45,194 nt of DNA from a bacterium (GTDB lineage: Bacteria; Vulcanimicrobiota; Vulcanimicrobiia; Vulcanimicrobiales; Vulcanimicrobiaceae). How positions within the stretch are numbered: the stretch's first letter is position 1; every line of letters begins with the position of its first letter. The stretch lies in assembly GCA_021786705.1 (NCBI GenBank), contig JAJYMV010000059.1, positions 1 to 45,194 of the forward strand, given 5' to 3'. A program made the position numbers and the translations under genes. Shown one piece after another: positions 2 to 20,973 of the stretch. Below the pieces are notes generated by a model that was not told where the DNA came from, did not search any database, and saw nothing but the letters and a program-made list of their open reading frames with translations.

Positions 2-454
2 ATTGAGGCCGGTGCGGAATCGCTAGGGGTGCATTTGTCCGAAGAGACGGCAAATATCCATCCTGAATTTGAAGCACGAGAAATTGCGCCTCCCATCTTG
101 GCTCCGATGCCCACCACGGGGCTCGAGCTGCTTACGGAGAGCGCGATCGGGCTGCTCCCGTCACTCTTTCGCGTTTCGGCTCTTCGGCGCCGGTTCACTT
201 CGATGGCGCCGAAGCTACTCGATAGGTCGCGCGGTCGAACGCGTGCTGCGGTCCTTCGATATCTTCTCGATTGCAGATTCGCCTACCGCGCACTCCTTCG
301 CGATCGCCTAGCAGCGGCGCGCGATCTCGTCGAAAGAGCGTTTGAACGCATTGGCGACGTCGCTGGTGCCGAGGATACGGAAGTGGCGGAAGTCATCGAC
401 CAACTTCATCGCGATGAGCGAGAGCTCGATGGCGTACTTTCCCGATATGCGTAG
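2..454 (+). CDS. Dynamin-like GTPase, C-terminal part (5' truncated by window edge)
   Basis: The reading frame is open to the window edge, so the gene starts outside; a GTG at 29 is only an internal codon candidate. About 150 residues are visible, almost all predicted helix, with a basic stretch around RVSALRRRF followed by long amphipathic helices rich in Arg, Glu and Leu, ending LDGVLSRYA. This matches the helical stalk found after the GTPase domain in bacterial dynamin-like proteins, which remodel membranes. The GTPase motifs would lie upstream and cannot be seen, so the call rests on helical pattern alone. The following gene overlaps its end by 8 bases. A second, complete dynamin-like gene lies at 6999-5359 on the other strand. 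Confidence 0.5.
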   Translation: MEAGAESLGVHLSEETANIHPEFEAREIAPPILAPMPTTGLELLTESAIGLLPSLFRVSALRRRFTSMAPKLLDRSRGRTRAAVLRYLLDCRFAYRALLRDRLAAARDLVERAFERIGDVAGAEDTEVAEVIDQLHRDERELDGVLSRYA

Positions 455-1127: not shown

Positions 1128-2299
1128 AGAAAGCGAATCCATTCGCATTCGTCATTCTTATCGGCGTGTTGAGCTTCTTTGCTGATTTTGCTTACGAAGG
1201 GGCGCGTAGCGTTGCCGGCCCGTTTCTCGCCTTACTCGGTGCCGGTGCGGTTGTTGTAAGCAGTATTGGCGGATTCGGCGAATTGCTGGGCTACGGAATA
1301 AGCATCATCTCCGGGCCGTTGGCGATGCGGACCAGGCAGTACTGGGGAATCGCGCTTGTCGGATACGGCATACAACTCTCCGCGGTTCCGTTGCTTACGT
1401 TTGCGAGGACATGGCCCGAGGCAGCCGGCCTCATCTTTCTGGAACGAATCGGTAGAGCGATCCGTAACCCTCCACGAGACACCATGCTCTCATTCGCCGC
1501 GAAAGAAATCGGGTATGGGTGGGGCTTCGGCGTTCATGAGGCGCTGGATCAGGCCGGCGCGCTCGTCGGGCCACTGGTGGTAGCGCTAATTCTCGTCACC
1601 GAGCATTCCTACCGCGAGGCCTTCGCGGCTCTAACCGTACCGGTAGCTTGTGTATTTATCCTGTTAGGGATCGCTCGTCACGTCTACCCGCGTCCTTTGA
1701 AGTTCGACGATACTTCACCGACTTTGCCAAGCACGTCTCTACCGCGAGTATTCTGGATCTATCTTATTGGGGCCGGGCTCGTCGCCGCCGGCTTTGCCGA
1801 CTTCGCGCTCATTTCCTATCACCTCGTTCGACATGTCCTACACGTTCCGATGTTGATACCGATCGTGTATTCGGTCGCAATGGCGGTTAGCGGCGGCGGG
1901 TCGTTACTCTTCGGGCGCCTGTTCGATCGGTTTGGGTTTCGAGTGCTGCTTCCGCTGACTCTTGTTAGCGCAGCGTTTGCTCCACTCGTTTTCCTCGGCG
2001 GATTTTGGGTCGCAATATTCGGCGCGGCGATTTGGGGGTTGGGCATTGGGGTTCATGAGTCGATTATACCCGCTGCCGTCTCGACGATGGTGTCGCCAAA
2101 ACAGCGCGCGTTTGCCTTCGGCATTTTTACGGGAGTTTATGGCGCTGCATGGTTCGCGGGAAGCGTAGTAATCGGGCTCCTATACGGGAAATCCCTCGTA
2201 CTCGTGGTCGCATTCTGTATCATAATTCAAATCACTGCGCTCCCGATCTTTGCTTGGATCGCTCGGCAGGGCTCAACAGTAAATGCGGGCGAAGGTTAA
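1124..2299 (+). CDS. MFS transporter
   Basis: A 391-residue integral membrane protein with about 12 hydrophobic segments, the usual size for a major facilitator. The start at 1124 is chosen because ATG overlaps the upstream TGA and the protein then begins MKKANPFAFVILIGVLSFF, directly in the first membrane segment; the frame is open further upstream but without a matching family N-terminus. The cytoplasmic loop LERIGRAIRNPPRDTML and the following GVHEALDQAGALVGP are typical of MFS_1 drug or metabolite exporters. The second half (VFWIYLIGAGLVAAGFADF onward) repeats the fold. Substrate cannot be read from sequence. It is the last gene of the operon with the dynamin-like and gpF-like genes and converges with the MutS-like gene, leaving only 25 bases between stops. 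Confidence 0.85.
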   Translation: MKKANPFAFVILIGVLSFFADFAYEGARSVAGPFLALLGAGAVVVSSIGGFGELLGYGISIISGPLAMRTRQYWGIALVGYGIQLSAVPLLTFARTWPEAAGLIFLERIGRAIRNPPRDTMLSFAAKEIGYGWGFGVHEALDQAGALVGPLVVALILVTEHSYREAFAALTVPVACVFILLGIARHVYPRPLKFDDTSPTLPSTSLPRVFWIYLIGAGLVAAGFADFALISYHLVRHVLHVPMLIPIVYSVAMAVSGGGSLLFGRLFDRFGFRVLLPLTLVSAAFAPLVFLGGFWVAIFGAAIWGLGIGVHESIIPAAVSTMVSPKQRAFAFGIFTGVYGAAWFAGSVVIGLLYGKSLVLVVAFCIIIQITALPIFAWIARQGSTVNAGEG

Positions 2300-2324: not shown

Positions 2325-3821
2325 CTAAAGCGGTCCGAAAATTCGCCGATAGAGGTCTTCGCCGAAACTGGTTGGGAGTGGAGCGTCTTCCGTAAGTGAA
2401 AAATTCGAAATATCGTCACCACGTCTACGAGCTTGTAAAAAAAGACTCTCAGAACCGCGCTCCTTCGCAAGCCGGTGTGCGAATTCGTAAAGATGCGTAA
2501 CGAAAACGGTTCGCACATCGCCGTCCATGAGTGCCTCGGCGATTTGTAGCGCGATCTCAGATCCTTCCCGATCGTTGGTTGCGGCAAACGATTCGTTGAA
2601 GAGAAGGAGAGAATGGGGAGGAAGAACGTTGACAATCTCGTTCATCCTACGGAGTTCTTCGTCGAATTTGCCGCTCTCGAGGGATCGATCCTCCTCGCGC
2701 CTGAAGTGTGTGAACACCTTGGTAGCGATGGATGCGCGAAACATGCGAACCGGTACGAATAGGCCAGCGGCCATCATTAAATGAGCTATCCCAATGCTAC
2801 GAAGGAACGTCGATTTTCCCCCCTGATTCGCTCCGGTCACAACAATGATCTTTTTCCCGCTTGCGTTCGCGGTATTTCCGGAAATCGGCTGCTCCGTCTG
2901 AAGTGAGAGGGAAAGATCATAAAGATCTTCAAACTGGAGGACGAAAGTTTTACTTTCCAGGGGGACCGGAAAGAAGGTGCGGGCTCCGATCTCCTCGAGA
3001 CGGTCGTGTAAATTCATGCATGCAATATAGAACCCAAGTTCATAGCGTAAAGTCGAAAAGAACTTCAAAACATGGATAAGTGATCGCTCCAGTATGTCGG
3101 CGATGTCTCGTAGCGCTCTGTCTCGAAGATTGTCGAGAGCGCGCGCCCCGCTCTCGTCGCGAGGGTGGAGATAGTACGTGTATCCCGCAATCTTAGGTGG
3201 GAAAAGGCGTTGTAGCCAAGAGAACATCGGCGGTTGGTAAGTTCGAATCGTAAATCGATCTAGGAAATGTCCGCATCCGAGCTTGGCACTTGCCATAAAA
3301 CCGTCGCGGAAATCGACTTGTCGCAACATGTCGCGAATATCGCGAAGGTACGAAGCGGGAACTTCGGCACGAAGCATCTCGATAAAACGCTTAAAGCCGT
3401 CGGATTCAAATGCATCGGGGGATCGCTCAATAGTCGCGCAAAGTTGCTCCAACGCGTCAACGAACATTGCGAGCACCTCCCGGGACCGGCGCACGATCGG
3501 CTCGGCGCGTCGTAGGCGTACGCCCCAATAGTTACGGCCTTCGGCGGATAGTGCTTCCCCGGCAATCGAATAAAGCGACCGGACCACTTTGCGGTTTGCC
3601 AGGCAGTCACGCAGAATGCTCTGGCGATAGAGAACCTCGGACGAATCGCTGAGACCGTTGAGAAGCACGCGGGGAACGATGTCGGCGAGTACACGGTCGT
3701 GGCCGGACATGGCGTTCATTATGGCTTCAAGTCCAAGGTCGCGTACGAGGGCGTCGGCGTTCCATGGCAGCCCTTGTTCGCAGTCGGCATCCCTGTCGGG
3801 GAAAAGTAAGAACGCATTCAC
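2325..3821 (-). CDS. MutS-like ATPase B
   Basis: A 498-residue protein with the MutS core/lever region followed by a MutS-type ABC ATPase domain. Walker A is GANQGGKST near residue 333 and Walker B is LLLFNESFAATNDREG near 407; VFVTHLYEF supplies the following His switch. It lacks the MutS mismatch-recognition domain (no Phe-X-Glu N-terminus), so it is not a standard repair MutS. The usual Walker B Asp-Glu is Asn-Glu here. Its ATG overlaps the TGA of the paralogous ATPase A (ATGA at 3821-3818), so the two are translated together and probably form a heterodimer, as expected of MutS-type ATPases; that is inference. It is the last gene of the minus-strand operon. A MutS2-type role is possible, but no Smr domain is present. 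Confidence 0.8.
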   Translation of the reverse strand: MNAFLLFPDRDADCEQGLPWNADALVRDLGLEAIMNAMSGHDRVLADIVPRVLLNGLSDSSEVLYRQSILRDCLANRKVVRSLYSIAGEALSAEGRNYWGVRLRRAEPIVRRSREVLAMFVDALEQLCATIERSPDAFESDGFKRFIEMLRAEVPASYLRDIRDMLRQVDFRDGFMASAKLGCGHFLDRFTIRTYQPPMFSWLQRLFPPKIAGYTYYLHPRDESGARALDNLRDRALRDIADILERSLIHVLKFFSTLRYELGFYIACMNLHDRLEEIGARTFFPVPLESKTFVLQFEDLYDLSLSLQTEQPISGNTANASGKKIIVVTGANQGGKSTFLRSIGIAHLMMAAGLFVPVRMFRASIATKVFTHFRREEDRSLESGKFDEELRRMNEIVNVLPPHSLLLFNESFAATNDREGSEIALQIAEALMDGDVRTVFVTHLYEFAHRLAKERGSESLFLQARRRGDDISNFSLTEDAPLPTSFGEDLYRRIFGPL

Positions 3822-5362
3822 GACGTTGACCTTCCGGCGAGTCTTGCGGAGAGGAGGTCGTAAGTGAGCTCGTAGGTCTTAGCGAGTGCAAGTGCGTATG
3901 CTAATCCGTCAGCGGGTTTTCTGACTAGGCGAAACGTACGCGTATTTGAATGTGTTGGATCGACGAGGCTGACAAGACTCACCGTTTTATTACTGAGAGT
4001 AGAAAGGTCGTCAATAAATGTCACGCAAACACCGATAGCGTCCAAATCGAGTATTTTCGAAAGAATGCGCGTTCCAAGAAGCGCCGCGTCCTTGGCCGTC
4101 GTCGAAGCAAATAGTTCATTTAGAATGATTATGCTGCTTGATGTCGCTTTTTCCAAAATATCGTGAATGCGAATAAGGTCGTCCTCTAGCTTGCCGCGGG
4201 AACTACCCGGCAATTCTTCGCGTTCAAAATGAGTGTATATGGCGTCAAAAAGAAAAGTACGAGCTTCGACCCCGGCGACGCGGCATCCCAACGATGCCAA
4301 AACGTTCACTTGCCCGAAGGTGCGGGCAAATGTAGTTTTCCCACCTTGGTTTGGTCCGGAGACCACGAACATGCGTTCCTCCCCGGACAAGAACCAATCA
4401 TTGCGGACGATTGCAAATGGTTCGTGCATAGCTTGACATGCTAGGGCGCTGTCATAACCTTCCTTCACCTCAATAGGTGTGTGTGATGCGCTTACGGTCG
4501 GGAAACACGTAGGGAGGCCGGCGCTAGATAAACGTCGAGTAAAATCCGTACATGCAAGGTAAAAGTGAAGTTCACGAGTCAATCGACGAGCCGATGTTGG
4601 GAAGAAGCTATGGTGGCGATCGGCGAAACATTTTAGCCTAAAGAACGGCTGAGGATATAACCGAGCGATGTTTTCGACAGCCTTCGCCTCAATATGGTTT
4701 AGAGAGACGTACGAGGGGGGTTTCGACGAGTGTTCGGGGTATGTCGTAGGGCGAAACCGTTGAAATGTTCGCTCGACCGCGCCGGCAAGATCGCTCTCGT
4801 GCCCTCCCTCTCGAACGTTGATGCTTCCCGAGCCTATAATGATTCGAAAATCTAAAGCGTCGATGGATGCCAGCAAAGAAGCCGCGTCTTGTTCGAGAGT
4901 TATAAAATCATTGAAACTTAAATATTGCGCGAGCGCGGTGCGAAGTTGTATTAAGCCGCTCGAGGCGGGCGAGAGAACGTGCAATTGCTCGACGGCATGG
5001 CGCAAGGTCGTACTATATACGTGAGCTGCGTCTAAGATAAGGCGGTCGTGTTCGAGCGGATACGATGAGTTTGTCGCTTGTTCTAAGTGCCTTTGTACTG
5101 TTGAGAAATTATCTGAAAGATGACAAAATAGCTCGTGAACCGACACGTTCTCGACATCCTTCATTATTGCTTGTCGGTAATAGATCGCATCGACATCGGT
5201 AAGCGGAGCATAGAAAAGCGGTTCGAGACCGTACTGCTCGTGGCCGGAGAGCATTTCATGGAGAATTCGATCGAGTTGGAGATCGTAAAAATAGGTAGGT
5301 GGATCGCGAGGTTCGACCGTGGGCTCGCTAAGGGCAGGGTAGAGAAGGCTGGGAAGATTCAT
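3818..5362 (-). CDS. MutS-like ATPase A
   Basis: A 514-residue paralogue of the next gene. The frame is open upstream, but the start MNLPSLLYPALSEPTV at 5362 is preferred because its ATG overlaps the stop of the GTPase gene (ATGA at 5362-5359) and the upstream frame is low-complexity Arg-rich shadow sequence. Core and lever regions occupy residues 1-320. Walker A is GPNQGGKTT near 338, and THFEREE lies between the motifs, as in the paralogue. Walker B is IIILNELFASTTAKDA near 412, again Asn in place of Asp. It has no mismatch-binding domain, no Smr domain and no membrane segment. Obligate pairing with ATPase B is inferred from tandem coupling. The operon links it to a membrane GTPase rather than to MutL or recombination genes. 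Confidence 0.8.
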   Translation of the reverse strand: MNLPSLLYPALSEPTVEPRDPPTYFYDLQLDRILHEMLSGHEQYGLEPLFYAPLTDVDAIYYRQAIMKDVENVSVHELFCHLSDNFSTVQRHLEQATNSSYPLEHDRLILDAAHVYSTTLRHAVEQLHVLSPASSGLIQLRTALAQYLSFNDFITLEQDAASLLASIDALDFRIIIGSGSINVREGGHESDLAGAVERTFQRFRPTTYPEHSSKPPSYVSLNHIEAKAVENIARLYPQPFFRLKCFADRHHSFFPTSARRLTRELHFYLACTDFTRRLSSAGLPTCFPTVSASHTPIEVKEGYDSALACQAMHEPFAIVRNDWFLSGEERMFVVSGPNQGGKTTFARTFGQVNVLASLGCRVAGVEARTFLFDAIYTHFEREELPGSSRGKLEDDLIRIHDILEKATSSSIIILNELFASTTAKDAALLGTRILSKILDLDAIGVCVTFIDDLSTLSNKTVSLVSLVDPTHSNTRTFRLVRKPADGLAYALALAKTYELTYDLLSARLAGRSTS

Positions 5363-6999
5363 GAAACGCGGCTGACTCCATTGAGCCCCTGGCTCCCGGC
5401 TAGAACCGTGAGGCCGCGCCGTGCGGCGTTTCTTTCGTCCCCGTCGATGTAATCGCGCCGACGTGCATCGAGCTTTACGACATATCGGCGCATGTCGTCG
5501 GCGATCGTTCCATAGGCGTCCGAGGAATCGGTAATGAGGCGCAGTGCCCGCTCGGTGGTCGCGATAAGCGGAAGAACCCGTTCGAGATGCATGAGGCATA
5601 ATCCCGAATATCCTTCGTGGATACCGGAGATCGTGGCTGCAAGTTCGGCAATAGCGGTACGTTCGCTCTCGTCAAAGATTCGACATACGGGGCAACGATC
5701 GGGCGTTGCGCGAACCTTGGATACGGCGGAAGCGATCTCGGCGGGCTCGCACGGGGCGAGGGGTCGAAGTCGAGAAACAAGTGTTTCGAGGGCCTCGGCA
5801 TACGCTATGCAGCTAGCACGGGGGCTGGATAATACATCGTATTGCCAGGAATGACGTGCGCAGAAACCACCCATTCGAGCAAAAGTTTCTCGAACCGAAC
5901 GCGAGGTAACCAACTCGTACTGGTAGGTGCTGATAAAGGCAACCGCGCGCTCGGAGACTCGATCGCAGATCGAACAACCGGTAAATCGAGCGGTTTGGTT
6001 ACTCTCTTGCAAGATCGTCGAATTGTCGGCTTCATCGAGAACCCCTGCCATTCTCTCCGTCTCGATCATTTTGGCAATCTCCACCGGCTCAGGGTGTGAA
6101 GCAGAAAGTATGCTTCGCACGCGAAGGCAGGTCGAGCGGAGAAACTCGACCTGCTTTTCGTTGACGAGGAACCGGGTGAGCCGCGAAACGAATCGATCTA
6201 CGCTTGCCTCGAAACCAGGTGCCACGGAAACCGAATGAATTTCCGGTGTCGAGATGCCCGCGCCCAATAGCTGCGTTCGGAAATACGTGTCGATGTCAAG
6301 CTTGTCGCTCGCTGAAATTAAATCTTCTTTTGCGATGACAAAAAATAAGCGATGTCGATAGCGCTGGGCAAGCTCGACGAGTTCGCGCTCGTCCTCGGAA
6401 AAAGGACTGTCATAGCTGGTGACCAAGACGACTGCGTCGGCCTCCGGTATGTAGGCCAAGGTGTTGTTGCTGTTCGCTTGAATCGCGGAGCCTAGCCCCG
6501 GGGTGTCGACGATTGCGAAACCCTTACGCAGCAAAGGAGCGGGAAGTTCGATTCGAGCTTCGGCAACGCGGGTGGTGGTGGCTGTAAGGTAAGCAGGAAG
6601 ATCGTCCATTTCTATTTCAAACGATTGCTGATGACCCTCAGGTGTTATCCAAGCACGTTCGCGGCTACCGTAGATTATTTGAGTGATCGTCGCAGTTAGT
6701 GGAAGGCAGCCGACCGGTAGACGATCTGTGTGCAGAATAGCGTTTATCAGCGAACTCTTGCCGCGATTGAAGCGCCCGACCACCGCCAAATTGAACCGGT
6801 CCTCCGCAAGTTTCTTAAAAAGATCGCGAATTGTCGCCTGCAAGCCGGTGCGTTCGTCCGGAATGCGCAGAGCTGCAATTTGTAATGTATCGGCAAGCGC
6901 AAGCTTCGTTCGCTCGTACGTTGCAAGAGTCACCGCTCTAGGTTCCAATATTCGAAACGGATTCGATGAGAATCGGTCGCTCGTCGAATTCCCAGTCAT
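5359..6999 (-). CDS. Dynamin-like GTPase fused to double zinc-binding-like domain
   Basis: A 546-residue protein. The GTPase domain has G1 GRFNRGKSSL near residue 75, a switch Thr in PLTATIT, G3 DTPGLGS near 165 and a G4-like IAKED near 222. The second half is unusual: CSICDRVSERA then GGFCARHSW, and again CPVCRIFDESERT then SGLCLMHLERV. That is a tandem CxxC...GxCxxH unit known from stand-alone bacterial proteins and likely to bind two metal ions. The fusion to a dynamin-like GTPase is the notable point. Start 6999 (ATG) overlaps the previous gene by 62 bases; a GTG at 6933 lies just 4 bases after the upstream stop and is a serious alternative, which would drop 22 residues. The TGA overlaps the ATG of MutS-like A. 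Confidence 0.8.
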   Translation of the reverse strand: MTGNSTSDRFSSNPFRILEPRAVTLATYERTKLALADTLQIAALRIPDERTGLQATIRDLFKKLAEDRFNLAVVGRFNRGKSSLINAILHTDRLPVGCLPLTATITQIIYGSRERAWITPEGHQQSFEIEMDDLPAYLTATTTRVAEARIELPAPLLRKGFAIVDTPGLGSAIQANSNNTLAYIPEADAVVLVTSYDSPFSEDERELVELAQRYRHRLFFVIAKEDLISASDKLDIDTYFRTQLLGAGISTPEIHSVSVAPGFEASVDRFVSRLTRFLVNEKQVEFLRSTCLRVRSILSASHPEPVEIAKMIETERMAGVLDEADNSTILQESNQTARFTGCSICDRVSERAVAFISTYQYELVTSRSVRETFARMGGFCARHSWQYDVLSSPRASCIAYAEALETLVSRLRPLAPCEPAEIASAVSKVRATPDRCPVCRIFDESERTAIAELAATISGIHEGYSGLCLMHLERVLPLIATTERALRLITDSSDAYGTIADDMRRYVVKLDARRRDYIDGDERNAARRGLTVLAGSQGLNGVSRVS

Positions 7000-7372
7000 C
7001 GACGGGCTCGTGCTTACGGAGACGAGTCTTTAAGTCCGCGATTCGTTGTTGTAGCAGGGCGGAGCGCTCAAGGGTCGCTCGAACCTGTGAATAGGCGCCC
7101 GCGTTTCGCAGTCGCTCGATTGTTAAATTGCGGGTGCGCTCATATAATGAAAAATGTTCGGCTGCATAGTGTTGTTGCAAATCGTATAGACGCAATCGCG
7201 TATCAGTAAGGTTCCGTTCGGCTTCCAGGAGACGCCCTGCGAGTAGCGCACACTCCTCATAAAGAAGGGCATGGTTTGTGTCCTTCTGAATTGTCAAGAA
7301 ATCGGGTGAGCGTTTGATTCGTCGCGTTATCCACTCGAAGGCCGGTGCCGGTAATAGTCGTAGGACGTTCAT
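6938..7372 (-). CDS. Small coiled-coil protein of unknown function
   Basis: 144 residues from the ATG at 7372, which overlaps the phosphoesterase stop (ATGA). It begins MNVLRLLPAPAFEWITRRIK. Residues about 35-130 form a long predicted coiled coil (heptad-like Leu/Ala in LLAGRLLEAERNLTDTRLRL and ERSALLQQRIADLKTRLRKH), ending in an acidic tail EPVDDWEFDERPILIES. No catalytic motif or membrane segment is visible. I do not recognise a family. Sitting between a phosphoesterase and a dynamin-like GTPase and sharing coupled translation with both, it may be an adaptor or a partner for the GTPase helical domain; that is inference from context only. Confidence 0.65.
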   Translation of the reverse strand: MNVLRLLPAPAFEWITRRIKRSPDFLTIQKDTNHALLYEECALLAGRLLEAERNLTDTRLRLYDLQQHYAAEHFSLYERTRNLTIERLRNAGAYSQVRATLERSALLQQRIADLKTRLRKHEPVDDWEFDERPILIESVSNIGT

Positions 7373-8094
7373 ACTGGAACCGAAACGCGCATGGGTAACC
7401 GAGTACGAGGGCGGAGACTTCCTTCCGTTAACTCGCGAATACATGCGTCCTGAACATCGGAGGTAAGAGTCGTGGCGCGAATCCTCTCGATGGCGCGTTC
7501 GACATCGTATGGGACCGATTCGAACGATACATTGTCATGTTCGATCGTCACGAATGCCGCGTGTCCGCCCTTGGAACTGAAACCGACGCTCCCGGGATTA
7601 ATGATAAGTTTGTCGTGGTAGCGCCGCGCGCTTTGCCGGTGATTGTGCGCCGTTACGATGATCTGCGCTCGGGGGAAGGCGCGGGTCATTCGGTCGAGTT
7701 CATCATCGCTCGGTCCAAGATAACGATTGTAGTCTCCGGGGTAGGCATGCACCATCGCAATGCGCCGCCCGTCAACGACTGTTTCATATTCGGGAGGCAG
7801 TGATGCTAGTTGAGTTGCGCGCGCGGGTGCGAGTTTTTCGCGCGTCCAGGCTCGGCTGGCGATCCCCGCTTGCTCGAGGTGGCGAGGTAAGCGGTAAAAG
7901 GTGCCGTTTGCGACGGCGTCGTCCTCCTCGCCGCGAATGGCGAGCGCGCGCCGCTCGCGCAGCCAGTCGAGCGATTCGTTGGGTAGGGCGCCGAACGTCA
8001 CCGTATCCCCCGCGCAAAGCGTCAGGTCGGAATCGGGAAGTGCGGCGAGGGCATCGTAGTTCGCGTGAATATCGGCTACGATCAGGACTCGCAT
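7369..8094 (-). CDS. Calcineurin-like metallophosphoesterase (YfcE/MJ0936-type)
   Basis: 241 residues. Metal ligands of the family are visible: DIH at residues 8-10, GD at 29-30, a His in MVHAYPGDY, and the last His pair in TAHNH followed by NPGSVGFSS. Two positions differ from the canonical form: the GNHD motif reads RGEED at 54-58, so the usual Asn is Glu, and GHTH reads AHNH. The enzyme probably still binds two metals and cleaves phosphodiesters or phosphomonoesters, but the substrate is unknown. The start has an excellent ribosome site, AGGAGG, 5 bases before ATG. It is the first gene of the five-gene operon running to 2325. The leader directly upstream is highly structured. Confidence 0.85.
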   Translation of the reverse strand: MRVLIVADIHANYDALAALPDSDLTLCAGDTVTFGALPNESLDWLRERRALAIRGEEDDAVANGTFYRLPRHLEQAGIASRAWTREKLAPARATQLASLPPEYETVVDGRRIAMVHAYPGDYNRYLGPSDDELDRMTRAFPRAQIIVTAHNHRQSARRYHDKLIINPGSVGFSSKGGHAAFVTIEHDNVSFESVPYDVERAIERIRATTLTSDVQDACIRELTEGSLRPRTRLPMRVSVPV

Positions 8095-8099
8095 GGAAA

Positions 8100-8170
8100 C
8101 CTCCTACTGTCGATAAGCAGTAGGAGCCATTAGCCGCCTGCGGCGACGTTTTCGGCGAGCCCCATCGCCG
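8100..8170 (-). promoter_or_regulatory. Structured 5' leader hiding the Shine-Dalgarno site
   Basis: Reading the minus strand toward the phosphoesterase, three hairpins follow each other: CGGCGA/TCGCCG arms at 8170-8153, GCCGC/GCGGC at 8144-8133, and a perfect 9-base stem CTCCTACTG/CAGTAGGAG at 8126-8101 with an 8-base loop. The last arm contains five of the six bases of the AGGAGG site (8105-8100) for the gene starting at 8094, so folding would block ribosome entry. This suggests translational control by ligand, protein or temperature. No known riboswitch class is recognised. Confidence 0.55.
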
Positions 8171-8189
8171 ATGATCTATTCTATCACGT

Positions 8190-8666
8190 CTATAGATGAT
8201 TCGGCCGTTCTATGGCACGCTCCGTATCCTCGGAAAGGATATAGCGTCCTCGCTCGCCGGTCAATAGAAATATCGCGCGAGGCAGATGCATTACGACCCC
8301 CGCGCGATCGATCGATAGCCATTCGACCACTTGTTCGCCGTCTTCGGATGAGGGCCGGTGGCGGGGCGCGGGAAGAACCTCAGCATAGAAGCAAATTTCC
8401 AGGGAAGGAGCGCTCCAGCGATCGTGGCGCCTTTCTGCCAAGAACGCAATTCCATTTGCTCGCGCGTGGTAGCCGGTTTCTTCCAGTACCTCGCGGGCCG
8501 CTGGGCGGCGGTCGTCGGCGGTGCCCCATCGCCGTTTGGAGCGGAGACTTTCTCTTCTGACTACTCGTTCCTTCCGAAAGGAGCCGTGCCTCCGGGATGA
8601 GAAAGTGCGACGCCGGCGGTGGAGTTCGCCGGTAGCGCATGTCGCTACGAATAGCCTTTCGGCCAA
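8190..8666 (-). pseudogene. Decayed Nudix hydrolase
   Basis: The frame contains the second half of a Nudix box, REVLEETGY, followed by a believable Nudix C-terminal half (FYAEVLPAP..., GEQVVEWLSIDRA). Upstream, RRESLRSKRRWG resembles the strand before the box, but only about 10 residues separate that Trp from the REVLEETGY Arg where about 20 are normal. The glycines and first Glu of GX5EX7REUXEEXGU are missing. The N-terminus in this frame is Arg-rich and unlike the family; another frame reads NSTAGVALSHPGGTAP up to a stop, which looks more like a Nudix start. An internal deletion plus a frameshift is the simplest reading. A divergent but live gene is less likely because a catalytic Glu is gone. 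Confidence 0.55.
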
Positions 8667-8698
8667 TGACTCCTGGCAATGGACCGAACGCTATTGTC

Positions 8699-8709: not shown

Positions 8710-9666
8710 TTGTTCTTCACCCCACTCGCGATGCAGTCGGCGCAGGTGTTGACCTTGCTGCTCCTGTCTCCGTTGTTGAGCGGTTGCATCGCGCGCGCCG
8801 AAGCGATCGTTGCAGGGAAGCGCGGTCCATCGATCTTCCAAGTTTATCGAGACATTCTGAAATTTTTCCGCAAACAGCCCATTAGGCCGGAGCCGTCTTC
8901 GTGGCCCTTTCGGGCCGCCCCGTACATCGCGTGCGGATGCTACGCAACGATCGCGACGTTGATCCCGGTTTTGACGACGTACCCTCTCCCGGGCGCCACG
9001 TTCGGGGATATCCTCGGTGGTGCATTTGTCTTTGCTCTCGCGGGGTTCTTCATCGCCCTTGCCGCACTCGACTCGGGTTCGCAGTATGCCGGCCTCGGAA
9101 GCAGCAGAGCCGTAATGGTTGGAATCCTTGTCGAACCGACGTTAATATTAATATTTTTCTCAGTGGCGTTTATAACAGGAACGGATTTGCCGTATGCAAT
9201 GAACGCGGCCTTGCGCCACTCGGCGGCCGACGTCCTTCGCCCTGCACACGTCCTTGCCACCGCCGCATTTTTTATGATGTTGCTCGTAGATACAGGCCGA
9301 ATTCCAATCGAAAGTTCATCGGCGACAATTGAAATGGGCATGATCGACGATGCGAGATATTTCGAACATTCGGGCGCGTGGATGGCCCTGTTGAAGTGGG
9401 GGTCTTCTATGAAACAATTCTTGTTATACGTCATTTTTATCAACGTATTGCTGCTACCCATGGGGCTGTCGTCGAGCGGCTCCGTTGGGTCGCTTCTCGT
9501 GGCGGTTGGAACTCTTTTTGCGAAGATGTTGGCCGTAGGAGCGTTCGTCGTGGCTATTGAAACAACGTTTGCCAAACTGCGCCTCTACAAAATTACGGAA
9601 TTTATCGCTACCGGCCTTCTGGTTGCCGTCCTAGCCGTGTTTGCATACGTTGTCGGGGTGGGGTGA
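8710..9666 (+). CDS. hyfC: HyfC/HycD/NuoH-like membrane subunit, cluster 1
   Basis: 318 residues from TTG 8710 (ATG 8731 is the alternative), about eight membrane segments, close to the ~320 usual for HyfC. The N-terminal loop AIVAGKRGPSIFQVYRDILK with RGPS and YRD is diagnostic of the HyfC/NuoH family, the subunit joining membrane and peripheral arms. The conserved loop that normally reads ExxRxPxDxxxTHxELTMIHE reads DTGRIPIESSSATIEMGMID, so the first Glu is Asp, the Thr-His is lost and His-Glu becomes Asp-Asp. Cluster 2 HyfC keeps the consensus. This divergence goes with the loss of metal ligands in HyfG1 and HyfI1. It is the first gene of hyf cluster 1, and its TGA overlaps the HyfE start. 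Confidence 0.88.
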   Translation: MFFTPLAMQSAQVLTLLLLSPLLSGCIARAEAIVAGKRGPSIFQVYRDILKFFRKQPIRPEPSSWPFRAAPYIACGCYATIATLIPVLTTYPLPGATFGDILGGAFVFALAGFFIALAALDSGSQYAGLGSSRAVMVGILVEPTLILIFFSVAFITGTDLPYAMNAALRHSAADVLRPAHVLATAAFFMMLLVDTGRIPIESSSATIEMGMIDDARYFEHSGAWMALLKWGSSMKQFLLYVIFINVLLLPMGLSSSGSVGSLLVAVGTLFAKMLAVGAFVVAIETTFAKLRLYKITEFIATGLLVAVLAVFAYVVGVG

Positions 9667-10334
9667 TGCTGCATCAACTTACCGTCCCTCAGGCCTTTGC
9701 GGGGACGATAGCGATGCTTTTGCTGATCGTGCAGCTGGCGCTTTTCCGCTCGGTTGTAGTTGCTGAATTTATTCGCGTGTACGCGCTTCAGTCATGGTTG
9801 GTCGCCGCCATTTGTTTCGGCGTCGGCGTTACGGAGGGGGCGTTCGATCTCATAGTGCTGGCATTTGTGACATTGCTTTTCAAAGGCATCTTGTTGCCGC
9901 GCTATATGCAAGGATTGGCTCGCGGAATATCGGCACGGATAGAGTTGCCGGCTCGAATCAACGTACTATTATCGCTGGTCCTTGCCGGGGCGCTCATAGG
10001 TCTATCGATTCTGACATCGATCCAGTTGCCGCTTCACCACGGAGCGTTCTTGCCGCGAGCCGATCTTGCCGCAGCCCTTGCGATGGTCTTTACGGGATTT
10101 CTTGTGGCGATTTTGCGCCCGAACGCGTTAGCTCAGGTCGTTGCGTTTCTGACTCTGGAGAACGGCCTGTTTTTCGGTACGATTACGCTGGCACCCGGAT
10201 TGCCATTCGTTATAGGGATACTGTTGCTCATCGACGTTCTCGTTGCCGTGGTTGTTTTTGCCGTCCTCGTGCGCGCCCTCATCGGGCAACATTCGGCGGC
10301 ATCGGTGTCGGTTTTTGAAAGTCTGCGAGGATGA
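9663..10334 (+). CDS. hyfE: HyfE-like membrane subunit, cluster 1
   Basis: 223 residues with about seven membrane segments, the size of HyfE, a small membrane subunit of hydrogenase-4-type complexes related to NuoK at its C-terminal end. The recognisable part is LRPNALAQVVAFLTLENGLF, the conserved NuoK/HyfE helix with its in-membrane Glu retained. Either GTG 9663 (GTGA overlap with hyfC) or ATG 9666 can start it. Its stop overlaps the hyfF ATG (ATGA at 10331). The expected job is a proton half-channel in the membrane arm. Nothing in it looks degenerate, unlike HyfC1. Confidence 0.85.
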   Translation: MMLHQLTVPQAFAGTIAMLLLIVQLALFRSVVVAEFIRVYALQSWLVAAICFGVGVTEGAFDLIVLAFVTLLFKGILLPRYMQGLARGISARIELPARINVLLSLVLAGALIGLSILTSIQLPLHHGAFLPRADLAAALAMVFTGFLVAILRPNALAQVVAFLTLENGLFFGTITLAPGLPFVIGILLLIDVLVAVVVFAVLVRALIGQHSAASVSVFESLRG

Positions 10335-11776
10335 GCGTGCTTCCGGCTGCCGTTATTGCTATTCCCTTTACGGCAGCGCTGTTGTCGATGTTGTTGCCGT
10401 CGCGCGTCTCACGAGTACTCACAGGTTTCGCCGGGGCGGCGACCGCAGTGTGTATAGGTTCGATGGCGCTCGCCGCGTCGAAGGGCGGAGGCAGGCTCGA
10501 CGCTGTGAGCGCGCTGTTCTTGCTCCCTGTCGGAATCGTCTACGGGGCCGTCGGCGTTTACAGTACCTGGTACGTTCGCGCCGAGTCGATTGGTTCAGAC
10601 GGGGACGAACGATATCGACGCGAATTTCTTGCACTCACTAATGCGTTCGCGTGCGCAGAAGTTGTGGTGCCGTTGTTGACAAACATGGCCGGCCTTTGGG
10701 TCGCCCTTGAAGTGACGACGATCCTAGCAGCATTGCTCGTTCGGCTTCAGGGAACCGATGCGTCCTTGGAGGCCGCGTGGAAGTATATTCTGATTGCCTC
10801 ATGCGGGCTGGCGATCGGGCTGGTAGGGGTAGTCGTTCTATACGCTGCGGGAGTCGGGCCGCTCGGCTCGCGCTATTCCCCGGAATGGGCTCAGTACATG
10901 GCGATGGCCGGTCGACTCGATCCAAACGCCGTACGGCTCGCGTTCTTGCTTGCGCTCATTGGTTTCGGCACAAAAATGGGACTGGCGCCGATGCACACTT
11001 GGCTACCCGACGCGCACGGCGCGGGACCTACCCCAACGAGCGCGATGCTTTCGGGTATATTGCTATCGGACGCCCTGTACGTGATCGTGCGATTCGCGGC
11101 CATTACTAACGATGCGGTAGGATCGGGGATGACGCGAACGCTATTCTTCGTCGTCGGGCTGCTCTCGTTGTTTGTTGGGGCGTTCTTCCTCTTGCGTCAG
11201 CGCGATATAAAGCGAATGCTGGCTTACTCAAGTATCGAACATATGGGGATCGTCGCCTGCGGCTTGGCGTTCGGGGCGCCGCTGGCCATACTTGGGGCAT
11301 TTCTCCACGTGGTGAATCACTCAGCCGCCAAGGGGCTTGCTTTTCTGAGCGCCGGGCGTATTGCCGCACGTTATCAAACGCGTGAGATCGAAAAAATATC
11401 AGGAGCGGTTGCGGTTCTACCGTTCTCGGGAACGTTATTTGCGTTCGCCGGGCTTGCGCTTGCCGGGATGCCGCCGTTCGGCATTTTTCGTAGCGAAATC
11501 ATGATTCTTGCCGGCGGATTTTCGGGCCGAAGTTGGCCGATCGCGGCTCTGGTATTAGCGCTCCTTGTCGTGGCTTTCGCCGGAATCGTCCGTTGGGTGA
11601 TGGAAGTGACGGGCGGAGATGCACCGAAAACAATGCAACGCGGCGAACGCGATATCGGCGCAATCGGGTCGATGCTGCTCATTTCCCTCGTCGTCCTTGG
11701 CCTCGGGGTTTATCTCCCCGAGCCGCTCGAACATTTGCTCGCGCGCGCGGCGTTCATTCTCGGGGGCCGGGGATGA
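10331..11776 (+). CDS. hyfF: HyfF-like antiporter-type membrane subunit, cluster 1
   Basis: 481 residues, about 14 membrane segments, belonging to the Mrp-antiporter-like subunits NuoL/M/N. The core proton-path residues are all present: Glu127 in GLWVALEVTT, Lys in GTKMGLAPMHTWLPDAH, and QRDIKRMLAYSSIEHMG with its Lys and His. It should therefore still be able to move protons if driven. The C-terminus (GMPPFGIFRSEIMIL) matches HyfF. The start overlaps the hyfE stop (ATGA) and the stop overlaps the hyfG start (ATGA at 11773). The contrast with HyfF2, which has lost the Glu, is notable. Confidence 0.9.
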   Translation: MSVLPAAVIAIPFTAALLSMLLPSRVSRVLTGFAGAATAVCIGSMALAASKGGGRLDAVSALFLLPVGIVYGAVGVYSTWYVRAESIGSDGDERYRREFLALTNAFACAEVVVPLLTNMAGLWVALEVTTILAALLVRLQGTDASLEAAWKYILIASCGLAIGLVGVVVLYAAGVGPLGSRYSPEWAQYMAMAGRLDPNAVRLAFLLALIGFGTKMGLAPMHTWLPDAHGAGPTPTSAMLSGILLSDALYVIVRFAAITNDAVGSGMTRTLFFVVGLLSLFVGAFFLLRQRDIKRMLAYSSIEHMGIVACGLAFGAPLAILGAFLHVVNHSAAKGLAFLSAGRIAARYQTREIEKISGAVAVLPFSGTLFAFAGLALAGMPPFGIFRSEIMILAGGFSGRSWPIAALVLALLVVAFAGIVRWVMEVTGGDAPKTMQRGERDIGAIGSMLLISLVVLGLGVYLPEPLEHLLARAAFILGGRG

Positions 11777-13155
11777 TAGCGCCGTCGACCCTCCAGGCGA
11801 CGGTGCAGCGACGCATCGATGCAGGTGCCAGGCTTGCATGCATCTTTGCGGATCGCGTGGGGGCCGACAACATTCTATATTATGTTATCGAAGAAAACGG
11901 GAACTTGCAGACTCTTTCGGGGCCGGTTTTCGATGCCGTACGTTCGCTCGCCGTCCGGGTTCCCGCGGCTGCATGGTACGAGCGCGAAATTAGCGAACGG
12001 TGGAACGTCCGATTCGAAAATCTACCGCCCAGTCGGCCATTAACGATTGTGGCCCCCGCCGAACAGTTGCGCGTCGTCGAGTCGTCCGAGGTGTCGACCT
12101 TACTCTATGGGCCGATTCGTTCGGGAATCGTGGAGTCGGTTCGTTGGGTTGTGGAGACGGCTGGGGAGGATTTTATTTCGGTCTATCCATCGATGTGGCT
12201 GAAGCATAGGGGGCTGGAGGCGCGTTTTGTAAACGTTCCGATCGCCCTAGCTCCGTACGTTGCCGAACACGTTTCGGGGGCGAGTGCTTCTAGCCACGCG
12301 GCGGCATTTTGCAAGACAACCGAGATACTCCTGGGAATCGAGGCGCCGGAACGCGCCCGTGCCGCTCGTGCCATCCTCGTAGAATTGGAGCGTATCCATC
12401 AACATCTTGACTCGCTGGCAAAATTGGCGGAAGATGCGTCGCTCTCCGTCGGCTCGGCACAAGTGTTTGCTGCGAAGGAACGAGTTCATCGCCTACTGTG
12501 CGAGACCACCGGTAACCGCTTCGCCCGAGGGACGATTTGCGTTGGAGGAACGCGCTTTGACGTATTCGAGTGCCTTCGCGAAGTTTGTTCGCGAGAACTT
12601 GACGATCTGCAAGAGCGCGCATTGTCGGCCATCGATCGGCTCATTTCGACGCAATCGTTTATGGATCGTTTGATTGGGACGGGTACGATCTCGCACGCTG
12701 ACGCGGCCGCCCTAGGTGGGGTTGGGCCGACGGCTCGTGGCAGCGGCGTGTCGTGCGACGCCCGAACCGGCGACGGGTATCTTTTTACGCCGTTGGATTT
12801 TCGAGAAGCGCTCGAAGGGGGCTGTGATGCGGCTGCTCGGACGCTCGTCCGCGTAGCGGAGATACGACGCTCCTTTCAACTCGTGCGTAACGCATTGGAC
12901 GCAGATCCCCGCGGCTCGTACCGCACGAGCTTTGGGCTGTCGGACGGTGAAGCGATCGCGCGCGTGGAGTCTCCGCAGGGAGAACTTTTATACTTCGTTA
13001 GGATCGATTCCGGCGCGATCGCACGTGTTGCCGTGCGCGGAGCTTCATTCGCAAATTGGCCGCTTTTTGTTCCTTCACTGAGGGGAAATATTTTTACGGA
13101 TTTTTCATTCATCGAACATTCGTTTGGAGCATTGCAGTCGGAGGTGGATCGATGA
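11773..13155 (+). CDS. hyfG: HyfG-like large subunit without NiFe cysteines, cluster 1
   Basis: 460 residues. Residues 1-95 are a NuoC-like domain (WYEREISERWNVRFENLP), and the rest is the NuoD/hydrogenase large-subunit fold (LYGPIRSGIVES, LKHRGLEARF, ELERIHQHLDSL, GGVGPTARGSGVSCD). The first NiFe motif, normally RxCGxCxxxH, reads HVSGASASSH at 166-175, so both cysteines are Ser. The C-terminal motif, normally DPCxxCxxR, reads ALQSEVDR, with Leu454 and Glu457 in place of cysteines. The protein cannot hold a NiFe centre in the known way and should not be called an active hydrogenase. Energy-converting hydrogenase-related (Ehr) complexes are known to lack these ligands. Start 11773 is set by ATGA overlap with hyfF. 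Confidence 0.88.
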   Translation: MIAPSTLQATVQRRIDAGARLACIFADRVGADNILYYVIEENGNLQTLSGPVFDAVRSLAVRVPAAAWYEREISERWNVRFENLPPSRPLTIVAPAEQLRVVESSEVSTLLYGPIRSGIVESVRWVVETAGEDFISVYPSMWLKHRGLEARFVNVPIALAPYVAEHVSGASASSHAAAFCKTTEILLGIEAPERARAARAILVELERIHQHLDSLAKLAEDASLSVGSAQVFAAKERVHRLLCETTGNRFARGTICVGGTRFDVFECLREVCSRELDDLQERALSAIDRLISTQSFMDRLIGTGTISHADAAALGGVGPTARGSGVSCDARTGDGYLFTPLDFREALEGGCDAAARTLVRVAEIRRSFQLVRNALDADPRGSYRTSFGLSDGEAIARVESPQGELLYFVRIDSGAIARVAVRGASFANWPLFVPSLRGNIFTDFSFIEHSFGALQSEVDR

Positions 13156-13907
13156 GCTGGATCGGATACGGTCTTCGTGGTGGAATACTCACGACGCATT
13201 ATCCTTATGGCGACGATCGCATGCCCGAGGCATATCGGGGCGAAATCGAGTTCGTTGAATCCGGGCATCGAATAGAGGCAGGGGAGGGAGGCGTCGCCGA
13301 CATTTGCCTGTCGCAGGCTATCGCCGAAGAATCAATCGTCTCGAAGGTCGATACGCTCCGCTGCTTTCGGTGCGGCGAGTGTACGCGTGTTGCACCCGAT
13401 CGCTTCGTCGCTCGAAATCATTTCGAAATTGCGCGGGTTGCCGGATCGCCGAGTTCCGTACTTCGAGCACTAAAGGAGCGTCTTCATTCGCTTGGCCGAT
13501 CCGTACATTTGCGCCATGTCGATGCGGGAAGCGACGGGTCGGAAGAGCAAGAACTCAACGCTATATTCAATCCTTTTTACGATGCGAATCGACTTGGAGT
13601 GTTTCTCACGGCGTCACCGAGGCACGCCGATATGCTCGTAGTTACCGGTGCGGTGACGAGGCCGATGTTGGAACCACTTCAACGTGCCTTTGCCGCCATG
13701 CCGTCGCCGAAGGTTGTTATTGCGCTTGGGACCACGGCTTGTAGCGGGGGGATATTTCGGGGTCGCCCAGAGATCGTCGGACCCGTCGATGCCGTTCTTC
13801 CGGTCGATGTGTGGATTCCCGGCTCGCCGCCGTCTCCGCTTTCCATCCTCCACGGGATATGGGTTGCCCTTGGGCGCACGCTCGCACACGGTGAGGTGGG
13901 GGTGTGA
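13152..13907 (+). CDS. hyfI: HyfH-HyfI fusion: one-cluster ferredoxin plus cluster-less NuoB-like domain
   Basis: 251 residues. Residues 1-95 are a HyfH/NuoI-like ferredoxin domain (YPYG, YRGEIEF, CFRCGECTRVAP). Residues 115-245 are the NuoB/HyfI fold (RHVDAGSDGS, TASPRHADMLVVTGAVTRPM, ALGTTACSGGIF, WIPGSPPSPL). The four proximal-cluster cysteines are all replaced: Asp128, Glu131, Thr195 and Ser225. In the ferredoxin part, Cys71, Cys74, Cys77 and Cys52 remain, while the fourth cysteine of the second motif is Ala81 and the first three of the first motif are gone. That pattern keeps exactly one of the two [4Fe-4S] sites. Start by ATGA overlap with hyfG; the stop overlaps the hyfB GTG. Confidence 0.85.
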   Translation: MSWIGYGLRGGILTTHYPYGDDRMPEAYRGEIEFVESGHRIEAGEGGVADICLSQAIAEESIVSKVDTLRCFRCGECTRVAPDRFVARNHFEIARVAGSPSSVLRALKERLHSLGRSVHLRHVDAGSDGSEEQELNAIFNPFYDANRLGVFLTASPRHADMLVVTGAVTRPMLEPLQRAFAAMPSPKVVIALGTTACSGGIFRGRPEIVGPVDAVLPVDVWIPGSPPSPLSILHGIWVALGRTLAHGEVGV

Positions 13908-15889
13908 TCTGGCTGCTCGCGGGCCTCGCCCTTAGTGCACTTGGAACGTTCGCTTCCATTTTGGTGCCGTCGTCGAGCGGACGCTTAGCGGGCTTCCTAA
14001 TGCTCGGAGCGAGCGGGATTGCAGTGCTCGTGGCGGCTACGCACGGGCTATTCGGACCCGGAGAGGCTACGCTCTTCGGAGCGGCGCAGTCCCACGTCGC
14101 GCTGCGCCTCGACTCCGTTTCGGGTTTTTTCCTAGCGGTGGTTGGCTTCGTTGCCGTGACGACCGGACTTTACGGCCTCGGCCCTCTCTCGTCCGACGAG
14201 CGGCGGAGCGGGCGGGCGGCATCGGCAAGTGCCTGCGCAATATTTTTTGCAACGATCCTGGCATGTGTTGCAAACGATATTTTCTTGTTCATTTTTGCAT
14301 GGGAAATGCTTGCACTCACATTTTATTGGGCGATTGCGTATTCCGGCACCGACGAAAGTGCCGCTCGCGCAGCGTACCTTACAATTGTTGTAACGCATGT
14401 CGCTGGCGCTTGTATCGTCGCAGCATTGCTCGTGTCGGCCCACGCGGCGGGCGGGTTCTCCGTGCAAGGTGTGGTTGCTGCCATTTCGACGATGGCGTCT
14501 CCGGGAGCGGGGGTGGTGCTAATACTGCTACTCGTCGGATTCGGGGCCAAATTCGGGTTGGTTCCGATGCACGTGTGGATGCCGCATGGATATCGTGCTG
14601 CACCATCGGTGGTCACGGCACTCATGGCCGGAGGAGCGCTTAATGTCGGGTTCTACGGCGTGACGCGTTTTGTTGTTTCCGCCTCGTCCATACCGCTTTG
14701 GGTGGGAATCGTTGCCATCCTCGCGGGTTCGCTGACGGCGTTCCTCGGAATCCTTTGGGCGTCGGCTCAACGCGACCTTCGCTCGTTGGCCGCGCTATCC
14801 AGCGTCGAAAATGGTGGCCTCATCATGACGGCTTTTGGCGTCGCAATGGTGGGCGGCGCACTTCACAACCCCCTTTTGCAGGGCTTTGCCGTTGCAGCTG
14901 CGTTCGTACAAATCGCGGCTCACGCGGTAGCAAAAAGCACGTTTTTCCTCAGTATTTCAGCGATAGGGGACGCGTGCGAGACGCGGTCGCTCGATCGGCT
15001 AGGGGGCATCGCAAGAAAACATTCCGGGCTCGCCGTAGCCGTTCTTCTATGCGGTATGTCGCTAGCCGCTTTGCCCCCGCTGGCGGGTTTTGTCGGCGAA
15101 TGGCTGATATTCGAGGCGTTGATGCAGGCTTTTCGGACGGGGAATGTAGCGTGCGAGGTGACATTTACCCTAGCCGGCGCGCTCGTCGCGCTCGCCGCTG
15201 GGACTGCAGTGGTTACGTTCACGAAGGTGTTAGGGATTGGGGTCTTCGGGGCCGCGCGAATGCAGAAACACGAACGGGGGGCCTACCCACGCTCGTTTGT
15301 GCGCTCGCTCGCCCTCGTCCTCGGTAGTCTGGCGATCGTCGGCGTCGGCATCGATGCGTCGGGCCTACTGCAATGGATTGCGGCTGCGATCGACGGCATT
15401 GCGAACGCACCGGCCGCGCTTGCAATGACCGGGGCGTTTCCGCTCGTGCAGCCTACCTTCAGCGGTTTTTCCTCGATATCGCCTGCCGGCCTCGGGGTTA
15501 GTATCGTTTTCTTCTCGGGGTTATTTTGGGTAATTTCGCGTTTGTTCCCTCGGCCGACCGGTCGCTACGGTGAGGTGTGGACATCCGGCGAATCCTATCG
15601 CCCCTGGACGCAGTACTCCGGGACGGGCTTCGTCAATCCGACCCGCGTTATTTTCGATGTGGCTTTGCGCACCGTTCGTACCGTCGACCAGGGAGAGCCC
15701 TTCCATTTTTCAAGCAATATCAGGCCTCTTCTCGATCTCCCATTCTACCGTATGCTCGTGCGTCCATTTTCTACAATTTCCCGCGTCGTTCGTGCAACAC
15801 AATCCGGGGTAATAGCCGCATATTTGTCATATATCCTTGCATTCACGATCGCCTTATTGTTGCTTTTCCCTTCGATTCGAAGATGGTAG
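13904..15889 (+). CDS. hyfB: HyfB-like antiporter-type membrane subunit, cluster 1
   Basis: 661 residues, about 16 membrane segments, NuoL/HyfB class with the long C-terminal extension (VWTSGESYRPWTQYSGTGF) typical of hydrogenase-4 component B. Glu is kept in FIFAWEMLAL and Lys in GAKFGLVPMHVW. Two other motifs are eroded: WLPRAHPxAP reads WMPHGYRAAP, and QxDLKRLLAYSSIEHxG reads QRDLRSLAALSSVENGG, losing the Lys and His. The proton path may be weakened. Start GTG overlaps the HyfI stop (GTGA). In cluster 2 hyfB is first; here it is last, so gene order was rearranged. The stop is 7 bases before uspA. Confidence 0.88.
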   Translation: MIWLLAGLALSALGTFASILVPSSSGRLAGFLMLGASGIAVLVAATHGLFGPGEATLFGAAQSHVALRLDSVSGFFLAVVGFVAVTTGLYGLGPLSSDERRSGRAASASACAIFFATILACVANDIFLFIFAWEMLALTFYWAIAYSGTDESAARAAYLTIVVTHVAGACIVAALLVSAHAAGGFSVQGVVAAISTMASPGAGVVLILLLVGFGAKFGLVPMHVWMPHGYRAAPSVVTALMAGGALNVGFYGVTRFVVSASSIPLWVGIVAILAGSLTAFLGILWASAQRDLRSLAALSSVENGGLIMTAFGVAMVGGALHNPLLQGFAVAAAFVQIAAHAVAKSTFFLSISAIGDACETRSLDRLGGIARKHSGLAVAVLLCGMSLAALPPLAGFVGEWLIFEALMQAFRTGNVACEVTFTLAGALVALAAGTAVVTFTKVLGIGVFGAARMQKHERGAYPRSFVRSLALVLGSLAIVGVGIDASGLLQWIAAAIDGIANAPAALAMTGAFPLVQPTFSGFSSISPAGLGVSIVFFSGLFWVISRLFPRPTGRYGEVWTSGESYRPWTQYSGTGFVNPTRVIFDVALRTVRTVDQGEPFHFSSNIRPLLDLPFYRMLVRPFSTISRVVRATQSGVIAAYLSYILAFTIALLLLFPSIRRW

Positions 15890-15896
15890 GTGTACG

Positions 15897-16725: not shown

Positions 16726-16761
16726 ATGACTATGGCGGTTTTTGCCTCCCGTGGGGCTTAA
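16726..16761 (+). other. Leader peptide or frameshifted 5' end of crcB
   Basis: AAGGAG at 16716-16721 precedes ATG 16726, which opens an 11-codon frame (MTMAVFASRGA) ending with TAA at 16761, inside the crcB gene. Removing one G from the GGGG at 16753-16756 would fuse it in frame to LKSVLTVAFGG of CrcB. It is therefore a coupling leader peptide, a slippage site, or an indel error. Confidence 0.45.
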
Positions 16762-17699: not shown

Positions 17700-17750
17700 C
17701 CTATCGGACTCCCCGGGCTGAATATGAAGCTCTCTTCGAGGAGGAAGCCG

Positions 17751-20948: not shown

Positions 20949-20973
20949 ACGCGATACTTGTGGAGGAGAAAAG

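Follow-up and report, generated by a model that had tools for sequence, protein, structure and literature searches.

The operon and its leader

The window analysed here is the complete 45,194-nt contig JAJYMV010000059.1, part of a 2.19-Mb draft genome (GCA_021786705.1) of a bacterium of the Vulcanimicrobiaceae. Its minus strand carries five co-directional genes, running from position 8094 to 2325, for a phosphoesterase, a coiled-coil protein, a dynamin-like GTPase and two MutS-like ATPases that we call A and B. Directly ahead of them lies a fluoride riboswitch, which was missing from an earlier note on this DNA. The operon and its leader comprise:

8114..8178, minus: fluoride riboswitch aptamer of the five-gene operon (RF01734, 46.3 bits, E 8e-10; 58.9 bits with our own model)
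8095..8124, minus: expression platform, aptamer 3' strand CTCCTACTG with CAGTAGGAG, 9 bp (minimum free energy -37.3 kcal/mol, z -2.5)
7369..8094, minus: YfcE-like metallophosphoesterase, 241 aa (Metallophos_2, 60.3 bits)
6938..7372, minus: coiled-coil protein, 144 aa, conserved in 9 island loci and riboswitch-led in 3
5359..6933, minus: dynamin-like GTPase with two CxxC...CxxH zinc-type modules (Dynamin_N, 87.6 bits; open reading frame (ORF) opens at 6999, likely start GTG 6933)
3818..5362, minus: MutS-like ATPase A, 514 aa, core/lever and MutS_V without a mismatch domain, Walker B N415-E416
2325..3821, minus: MutS-like ATPase B, 498 aa, architecture as in A, Walker B N409-E410

The earlier note had described this as a coupled operon that combines two MutS-type ATPases with a membrane-type GTPase, in a setting of stress, and that description stands. 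All five ORFs are present, and Pfam agrees with the proposed families (Metallophos_2 60 bits, Dynamin_N 88, MutS_V 76 and 54); a Pfam search with the coiled-coil protein gave no match. The ATGA overlaps reported between genes occur at 7372 and 5362, while the A/B junction at 3821 reads GTGA, with B starting at GTG. A further 62-nt overlap claimed at 6999-6938 is probably a start-codon artefact, because dynamin homologues of a related locus, L045, start at the residue that corresponds to GTG 6933, which lies 4 nt past the coiled-coil stop codon.

The aptamer ends 19 nt from the phosphoesterase start codon, and its score compares with a gathering score of 34 bits for RF01734. CTCCTACTG has its exact complement in CAGTAGGAG, where the Shine-Dalgarno sequence AGGAGG lies ahead of ATG 8094, and in the predicted fold the hairpin of the two closes off the start region. 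The pseudoknot of the aptamer, GGGGC/GCUCC (class GGNG/CUCC), can pair with one G-U. Because the CTCC strand of this hairpin is also the 3' half of the pseudoknot, the aptamer and anti-Shine-Dalgarno states are mutually exclusive. Judged from its sequence, the five-gene leader is a predicted translational ON switch, with fluoride as the ligand expected from the RNA class. Across 123 aptamers of related loci, 36 have an anti-Shine-Dalgarno complementarity of at least 7 nt, a length that the shuffle mean reached for none.

The A-B pair follows fluoride riboswitches

A scan of named genomes returned at least 584 loci with MutS-B. The loci studied are the best 80 matches, not a random sample, and come from Firmicutes, Chloroflexi, Proteobacteria, Bacteroidetes, Spirochaetes and other groups. 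Best BLAST hits served to tell A from B, iterated hidden Markov models of the two having merged, and riboswitches were surveyed in 86 non-redundant loci with our own covariance model, a subset being confirmed with that of Rfam. A lies directly upstream of B in essentially all 86 loci, and a fluoride riboswitch was detected in 66 of them, 56 times sense-upstream of A within 4 kb and 36 times within 300 nt. By random placement in the same loci, A would be expected immediately behind a riboswitch in 1.4 loci and a dynamin in 1.0; the observed numbers are 34 and 16. Homologues of the metallophosphoesterase are riboswitch-led in 4 of 11 cases (random mean 0.21), and one locus, L040, has two riboswitches by our model. 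None of the control loci, which have other MutS genes, exceeds 13.9 bits against the fluoride model. A survey of the phylum found MutS-B in 15 of 149 genomes, all 15 among the 59 that have the riboswitch (p=2.7e-7, phylogeny not corrected).

Whether the five genes occur together elsewhere had been left by the earlier note to neighbourhood searches. L045 keeps riboswitch, phosphoesterase, coiled coil, dynamin, A and B in exactly this order, with the same facing and divergent genes. In each of seven related genomes with an A-B pair, fluoride riboswitches lie around it, together with the same families in shuffled order. The co-occurrence of the five genes, complete and syntenic in L045 and partial in seven more relatives, is far from chance. 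The broadly conserved units are riboswitch-A-B and riboswitch-dynamin, and the five-gene order is a lineage-specific merger.

Recurrent neighbours of the pair are MFS transporters (29 loci), enolase (28), His phosphatase (21), the fluoride channel CrcB (20), a Na+/H+ exchanger (15), pyrophosphatase (PPase; 7) and universal stress protein (Usp), and CLC and dynamins are likewise among the genes of A-B loci; no DNA-repair genes are among the recurrent neighbours. Knockouts in the E. cloacae FRM operon show that the gene set crcB-gpmA-eno-usp-ppaC gives fluoride resistance (PMC5533749), and on the Klebsiella plasmid L150 an A-B pair lies in a riboswitch-led operon beside these same genes. The window resembles such resistance operons in its riboswitch control and in having CrcB and Usp, and its relatives do so in having eno, gpmA-like and PPase genes beside the pair. 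It differs in its MutS genes, which PMC5533749 does not mention, and in a putative complex-I-like pump; no enolase or PPase was seen in the window's island. On conjugative Klebsiella plasmids (L150, NZ_CP084857.1 3263-22750) the pair is labelled 'DNA mismatch repair protein MutS' within fluoride-riboswitch operons, an annotation that is misleading.

A fluoride-resistance island

The remaining features of the first 17.1 kb lie on the plus strand, divergent from the five-gene operon or facing it:

8606..8682, plus: second fluoride riboswitch, divergent (23.9 bits, E 2e-4 genome-wide; own model 17.8 bits)
8719..15889, plus: Hyf/complex-I-like membrane complex (HyfC, HyfE, HyfF, HycE, NuoB, HyfB-like)
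15894..16337, plus: universal stress protein (Usp, 117 bits)
16742..17140, plus: CrcB (Fluc) fluoride channel (PF02537, 93.5 bits), no other being found in the assembly
2..454, plus: second dynamin-like gene, C-terminal end, matching island dynamins of L036, L038, L045 and L053
429..1127, plus: 232-aa partner of the second dynamin, with C-terminal CxxC...HPGCRC, recurrent in island loci
1130..2299, plus: MFS transporter (MFS_1, 90 bits), its family recurring in 29 of the 86 MutS-pair loci

Because riboswitches front both operons and the complex-I-like operon ends in the sole crcB, positions 1-17.1 kb of the window are a fluoride-resistance island. The second riboswitch leads the complex-I-like operon and has an anti-Shine-Dalgarno pairing of its own (CTCCTGGCAAT/ATTGTCAGGAG, one G-U), and beyond these two riboswitches the assembly has no RF01734 match. 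It does have a CLC gene, at a site outside the complex-I-like operon. The second dynamin-like gene that the earlier note placed on the facing strand is real, and only its C-terminal end is present, since the window is a whole contig that starts inside the gene. The motif of its 232-aa partner, a protein without a Pfam match, is reminiscent of MuF-type phage head proteins. Between the two riboswitches, the box region of a Nudix gene (8190-8535, minus) runs directly into a riboswitch fragment at 8497-8533 (partial model match, 31 bits), and 17 nt of this region, GGCGATGGGGCACCGCC, are identical to the Nudix riboswitch of L045. The gene looks like a remnant, as if a deletion had joined an aptamer to it.

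Fluoride loci have been ascribed a formate hydrogenlyase (PMC2864571, PMC11139923). The complex behind the second riboswitch shares Hyf/Hyc-like subunits with hydrogenase-4-type formate hydrogenlyase but differs in its large subunit (11773-13155), which has no CxxC, so that all NiFe-ligand motifs are absent. The same holds for the large subunits of 14 homologues, giving no CxxC at any of 15 fluoride loci. Because the nickel-ligand motifs are lacking at these loci, the sequences indicate that the complexes cannot be ordinary NiFe hydrogenases, and an identity as formate hydrogenlyase was rejected. Hydrogen fluoride (HF) enters cells and acidifies them (PMC12831704), and the simplest reading of the fluoride-locus complex is an ion pump that handles HF-borne protons.

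Further along the contig, a second Hyf/complex-I-like set (24749-30917, plus), without a riboswitch, has a large subunit that keeps both CxxC motifs (CGNC, CYSC), so that this set could be a genuine group-4 hydrogenase. Long secreted repeat proteins, four paralogues of ~1000 aa (VPS10/BNR-like by eye), lie among hydrogenase-like genes at 17724-24048, 35539-38652 and 40052-43036. In other island loci, small DUF190-type proteins recur near crcB and the riboswitches (L152 9549-10220, annotated; L036 8518-8865 and L042 3563-4392, by a look at the sequence only).

The MutS-like pair and the zinc-dynamin

A and B, each of about 500 aa, have the MutS_V ATPase as their sole Pfam domain, with an intact Walker A motif. 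Pfam finds neither the MutS_I mismatch-recognition domain nor KOW or Smr in either protein, and both end after the ATPase domain. Asn takes the place of the Walker-B Asp in all 31 A sequences and in 51 of the 52 B sequences (82 of 83 in all), whereas each of 49 other MutS-family proteins checked, among them MutS1, MutS2 and KamC, has the Asp; a protein of locus L147 reads DE at Walker B. An AlphaFold model of B (predicted local distance difference test (pLDDT) 84) shows the ATPase, a core of helices, a lever helix 56 residues long and, at the clamp position, a short pair of strands; this clamp-like stretch covers only about residues 170-222. Foldseek aligns this model to MutS and MSH structures, and its list includes the E. 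coli MutS mutant D693N (3k0s). We take D693 to be the same Walker-B Asp, and this mutant presumably binds Mg2+ less well. Fluoride poisons phosphoryl-transfer enzymes as metal-fluoride mimics, and the Walker-B Asn may be an adaptation of the Mg2+ site to fluoride.

The pair resembles MutS and MSH mismatch repair proteins in its MutS_V ATPase and core/lever fold, and differs in the missing mismatch-recognition domain, the constant pairing and the Walker-B Asn. Classical mismatch repair was rejected, domain I being absent and Walker B reading NE, not DE; the C-terminal KOW/Smr domains by which MutS2 is recognised are likewise absent. KamC, a named lysine 5,6-aminomutase reactivase, is the top NCBIfam match of B and a likewise short MutS of core and ATPase, but it keeps the Walker-B Asp (L125), and no aminomutase genes were seen at the window locus. 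Its profile NF052383 gives 70.3 bits for B and 33.4 for A against a cut-off of 300, and with these scores and the different Walker B, membership of KamC was rejected.

The dynamin is a GTPase of the BDLP/IniA type. Its AlphaFold2 model (pLDDT 77) finds BDLP, IniA and mitofusin as best folds, and its G1 and G3 motifs (G80-K81, D165-T-P-G168) are invariant in 23 of 23 sequences. It shares GTPase and fold with BDLP and with IniA, which is named for induction by drug stress, and differs from them in two C-terminal CxxC...CxxH modules and in its MutS neighbours. These modules are invariant in 9 of 9 homologues from several phyla, 8 of which directly adjoin an A-B pair, in loci that had been chosen for the pair. 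With the zinc part alone as query, 149 genomes gave four strong hits, all within ~2 kb of MutS-B. Weak matches occur in ORFs of about 345 aa (G072:C30:146501-147085 and G075:C26:9586-10212, the latter contig also with a fluoride riboswitch), which are probably free-standing DUF6062-like proteins. In yeast, screens have found that endocytosis, vesicle traffic and pH control matter for fluoride tolerance (PMC7329995), which for the window's dynamin is a parallel only.

Discussion

Regulation of the five-gene operon by fluoride and its membership of the island are well supported, and a role in fluoride tolerance, as such, is very likely; that the operon combines the two we consider highly probable. 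We propose that, without fluoride, the 3' strand of the aptamer would pair with the Shine-Dalgarno sequence of the phosphoesterase gene, and that binding of fluoride and Mg would form the pseudoknot, free the Shine-Dalgarno sequence and allow translation of the coupled operon. The divergent twin riboswitch would turn on the complex-I-like ion pump, Usp and CrcB. CrcB would then expel fluoride and the membrane complex counter HF-borne protons, while the five-gene arm would cope with the fluoride that remains inside the cell. In this arm the phosphoesterase would supply added phosphatase activity, and A and B, as obligate partners in a heterodimer, would make up an ATP-driven clamp that does not recognise mismatches; its Walker-B Asn would weaken Mg2+ coordination and so keep the clamp from being trapped by fluoride-metal phosphate mimics. 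The zinc-dynamin would act beside the clamp, most likely at the membrane, like other stress-induced bacterial dynamins.

As to what the clamp works on, we rank reactivation first, damaged or acid-stressed DNA second and MutS2-like rescue of ribosomes third. By analogy with the MutS-like reactivase KamC, the clamp might repair or reactivate machinery arrested by fluoride, a suggestion for which we claim only a tentative preference. The fuller version, a fluoride-induced repair module in which a MutS-type heterodimer, without mismatch recognition and with an Mg2+ site altered to stay active in fluoride, and a membrane zinc-dynamin together restore machinery frozen by fluoride-metal phosphate mimics, is possible but speculative. 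If true, it would add a kind of fluoride tolerance to those by export, pH control and enzyme overproduction.

Several observations weigh against this picture. No riboswitch was detected in 20 of the 86 A-B loci; in about 9 of these the contig ends within the locus, and the remainder may be constitutive or have variants under the threshold. The divergent riboswitch of the window itself scores under the RF01734 gathering threshold. The five-gene set as such is limited to a few genomes, and in bacteria the pair mostly occurs without a dynamin. MutS-B matches KamC and MutS equally well (70 bits each), the metal of the zinc-type modules is a prediction, and the substrate of the clamp, like the heterodimer and the reasoning on Mg2+, is our inference.

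The pair could instead serve DNA maintenance, as a heterodimeric sliding clamp resembling MSH4-MSH5 but lacking domain I, its task being the protection or repair of DNA or of stalled forks damaged by fluoride or HF-borne acid, the dynamin then having a separate envelope function. The match of ATPase and core/lever fold to MutS and MSH structures is consistent with this, and the first describers of the crcB motif guessed at a DNA-damaging stress from the link to mutS (PMC2864571). The absence of MutS_I, the short clamp-like stretch of B, the unusual Walker B in both subunits and the lack of DNA-repair genes among recurrent neighbours argue the other way, and we regard a DNA role as conceivable but doubtful. 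Rescue of ribosomes or translation, in which a MutS2-like A-B would pull apart machinery frozen by fluoride-metal complexes on translational GTPases, appears unlikely. The solved structures nearest to A include MutS2 (7vuf_B, 94 bits), which is also a fold match of B (7qv3), and fluoride-metal phosphate mimics are generally known to trap GTPases; however, it is the Smr and KOW domains that do ribosome work in MutS2, and A and B end with the ATPase.

The proposed role in tolerance also has to be set against the view that the MutS pair and the dynamins are mere baggage of a mobile island that add nothing to fluoride tolerance. The A-B pair occurs on 48 plasmids, 21 of them typed as conjugative, and the distribution is patchy: none of nine same-genus genomes has MutS-B, and none has the riboswitch. 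This absence, together with the lower GC content of 1-17.1 kb (56.7% vs 62.8%), suggests that the island was gained horizontally. A and dynamin, however, each stand repeatedly and independently behind riboswitches, far more often than the one or so cases expected, and gene orders are reshuffled between loci, which makes a passenger role very improbable.

The earlier note had suggested a membrane-DNA system, possibly of defence, and had proposed a check for defence islands; the neighbours are fluoride-resistance and not defence genes, and the signal is fluoride, via riboswitches. PADLOC gives the dynamin a partial, domain-level match (LeoA 62 bits, LeoBC 30 bits), with no LeoB or LeoC among the operon's proteins, and LeoABC membership was set aside. 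Relatives are absent from the viral contigs scanned, and hits in phage records are partial, none full-length. MutS-like and dynamin proteins are generally known from some defence systems, but most loci show regulation by fluoride and have neighbours for fluoride resistance. With no defence genes seen and no PADLOC match of the MutS proteins above 14 bits, an anti-phage or envelope-defence system, LeoABC-like or other, is the least credible reading of all.

The occurrence of mutS behind the crcB/fluoride motif was listed in 2010 by Weinberg and colleagues (PMC2864571), very probably for the same genes as our A-B pair; the main text, as found by search, mentions neither a pairing nor the loss of a domain, a change at Walker B, a dynamin partner or a function. 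A search of the open literature, with few subscription papers, found nothing relevant on the fluoride riboswitch with MutS or with dynamin, and the dynamin link, the Walker-B signature and the Cys-less complex appear to be unreported there. As far as this literature shows, the mutS genes behind fluoride riboswitches, listed in 2010, were never explained. They emerge here as a pair that is widespread and obligate, has a distinctive ATPase site, often lies beside dynamins with fluoride riboswitches of their own, and is mobile on conjugative plasmids. The 'formate hydrogenlyase' ascribed to fluoride loci, our analysis suggests, is something other than a hydrogenase. Should the pair confer tolerance, fluoride toxicity would have a cellular target outside those met by export or enzyme overproduction.

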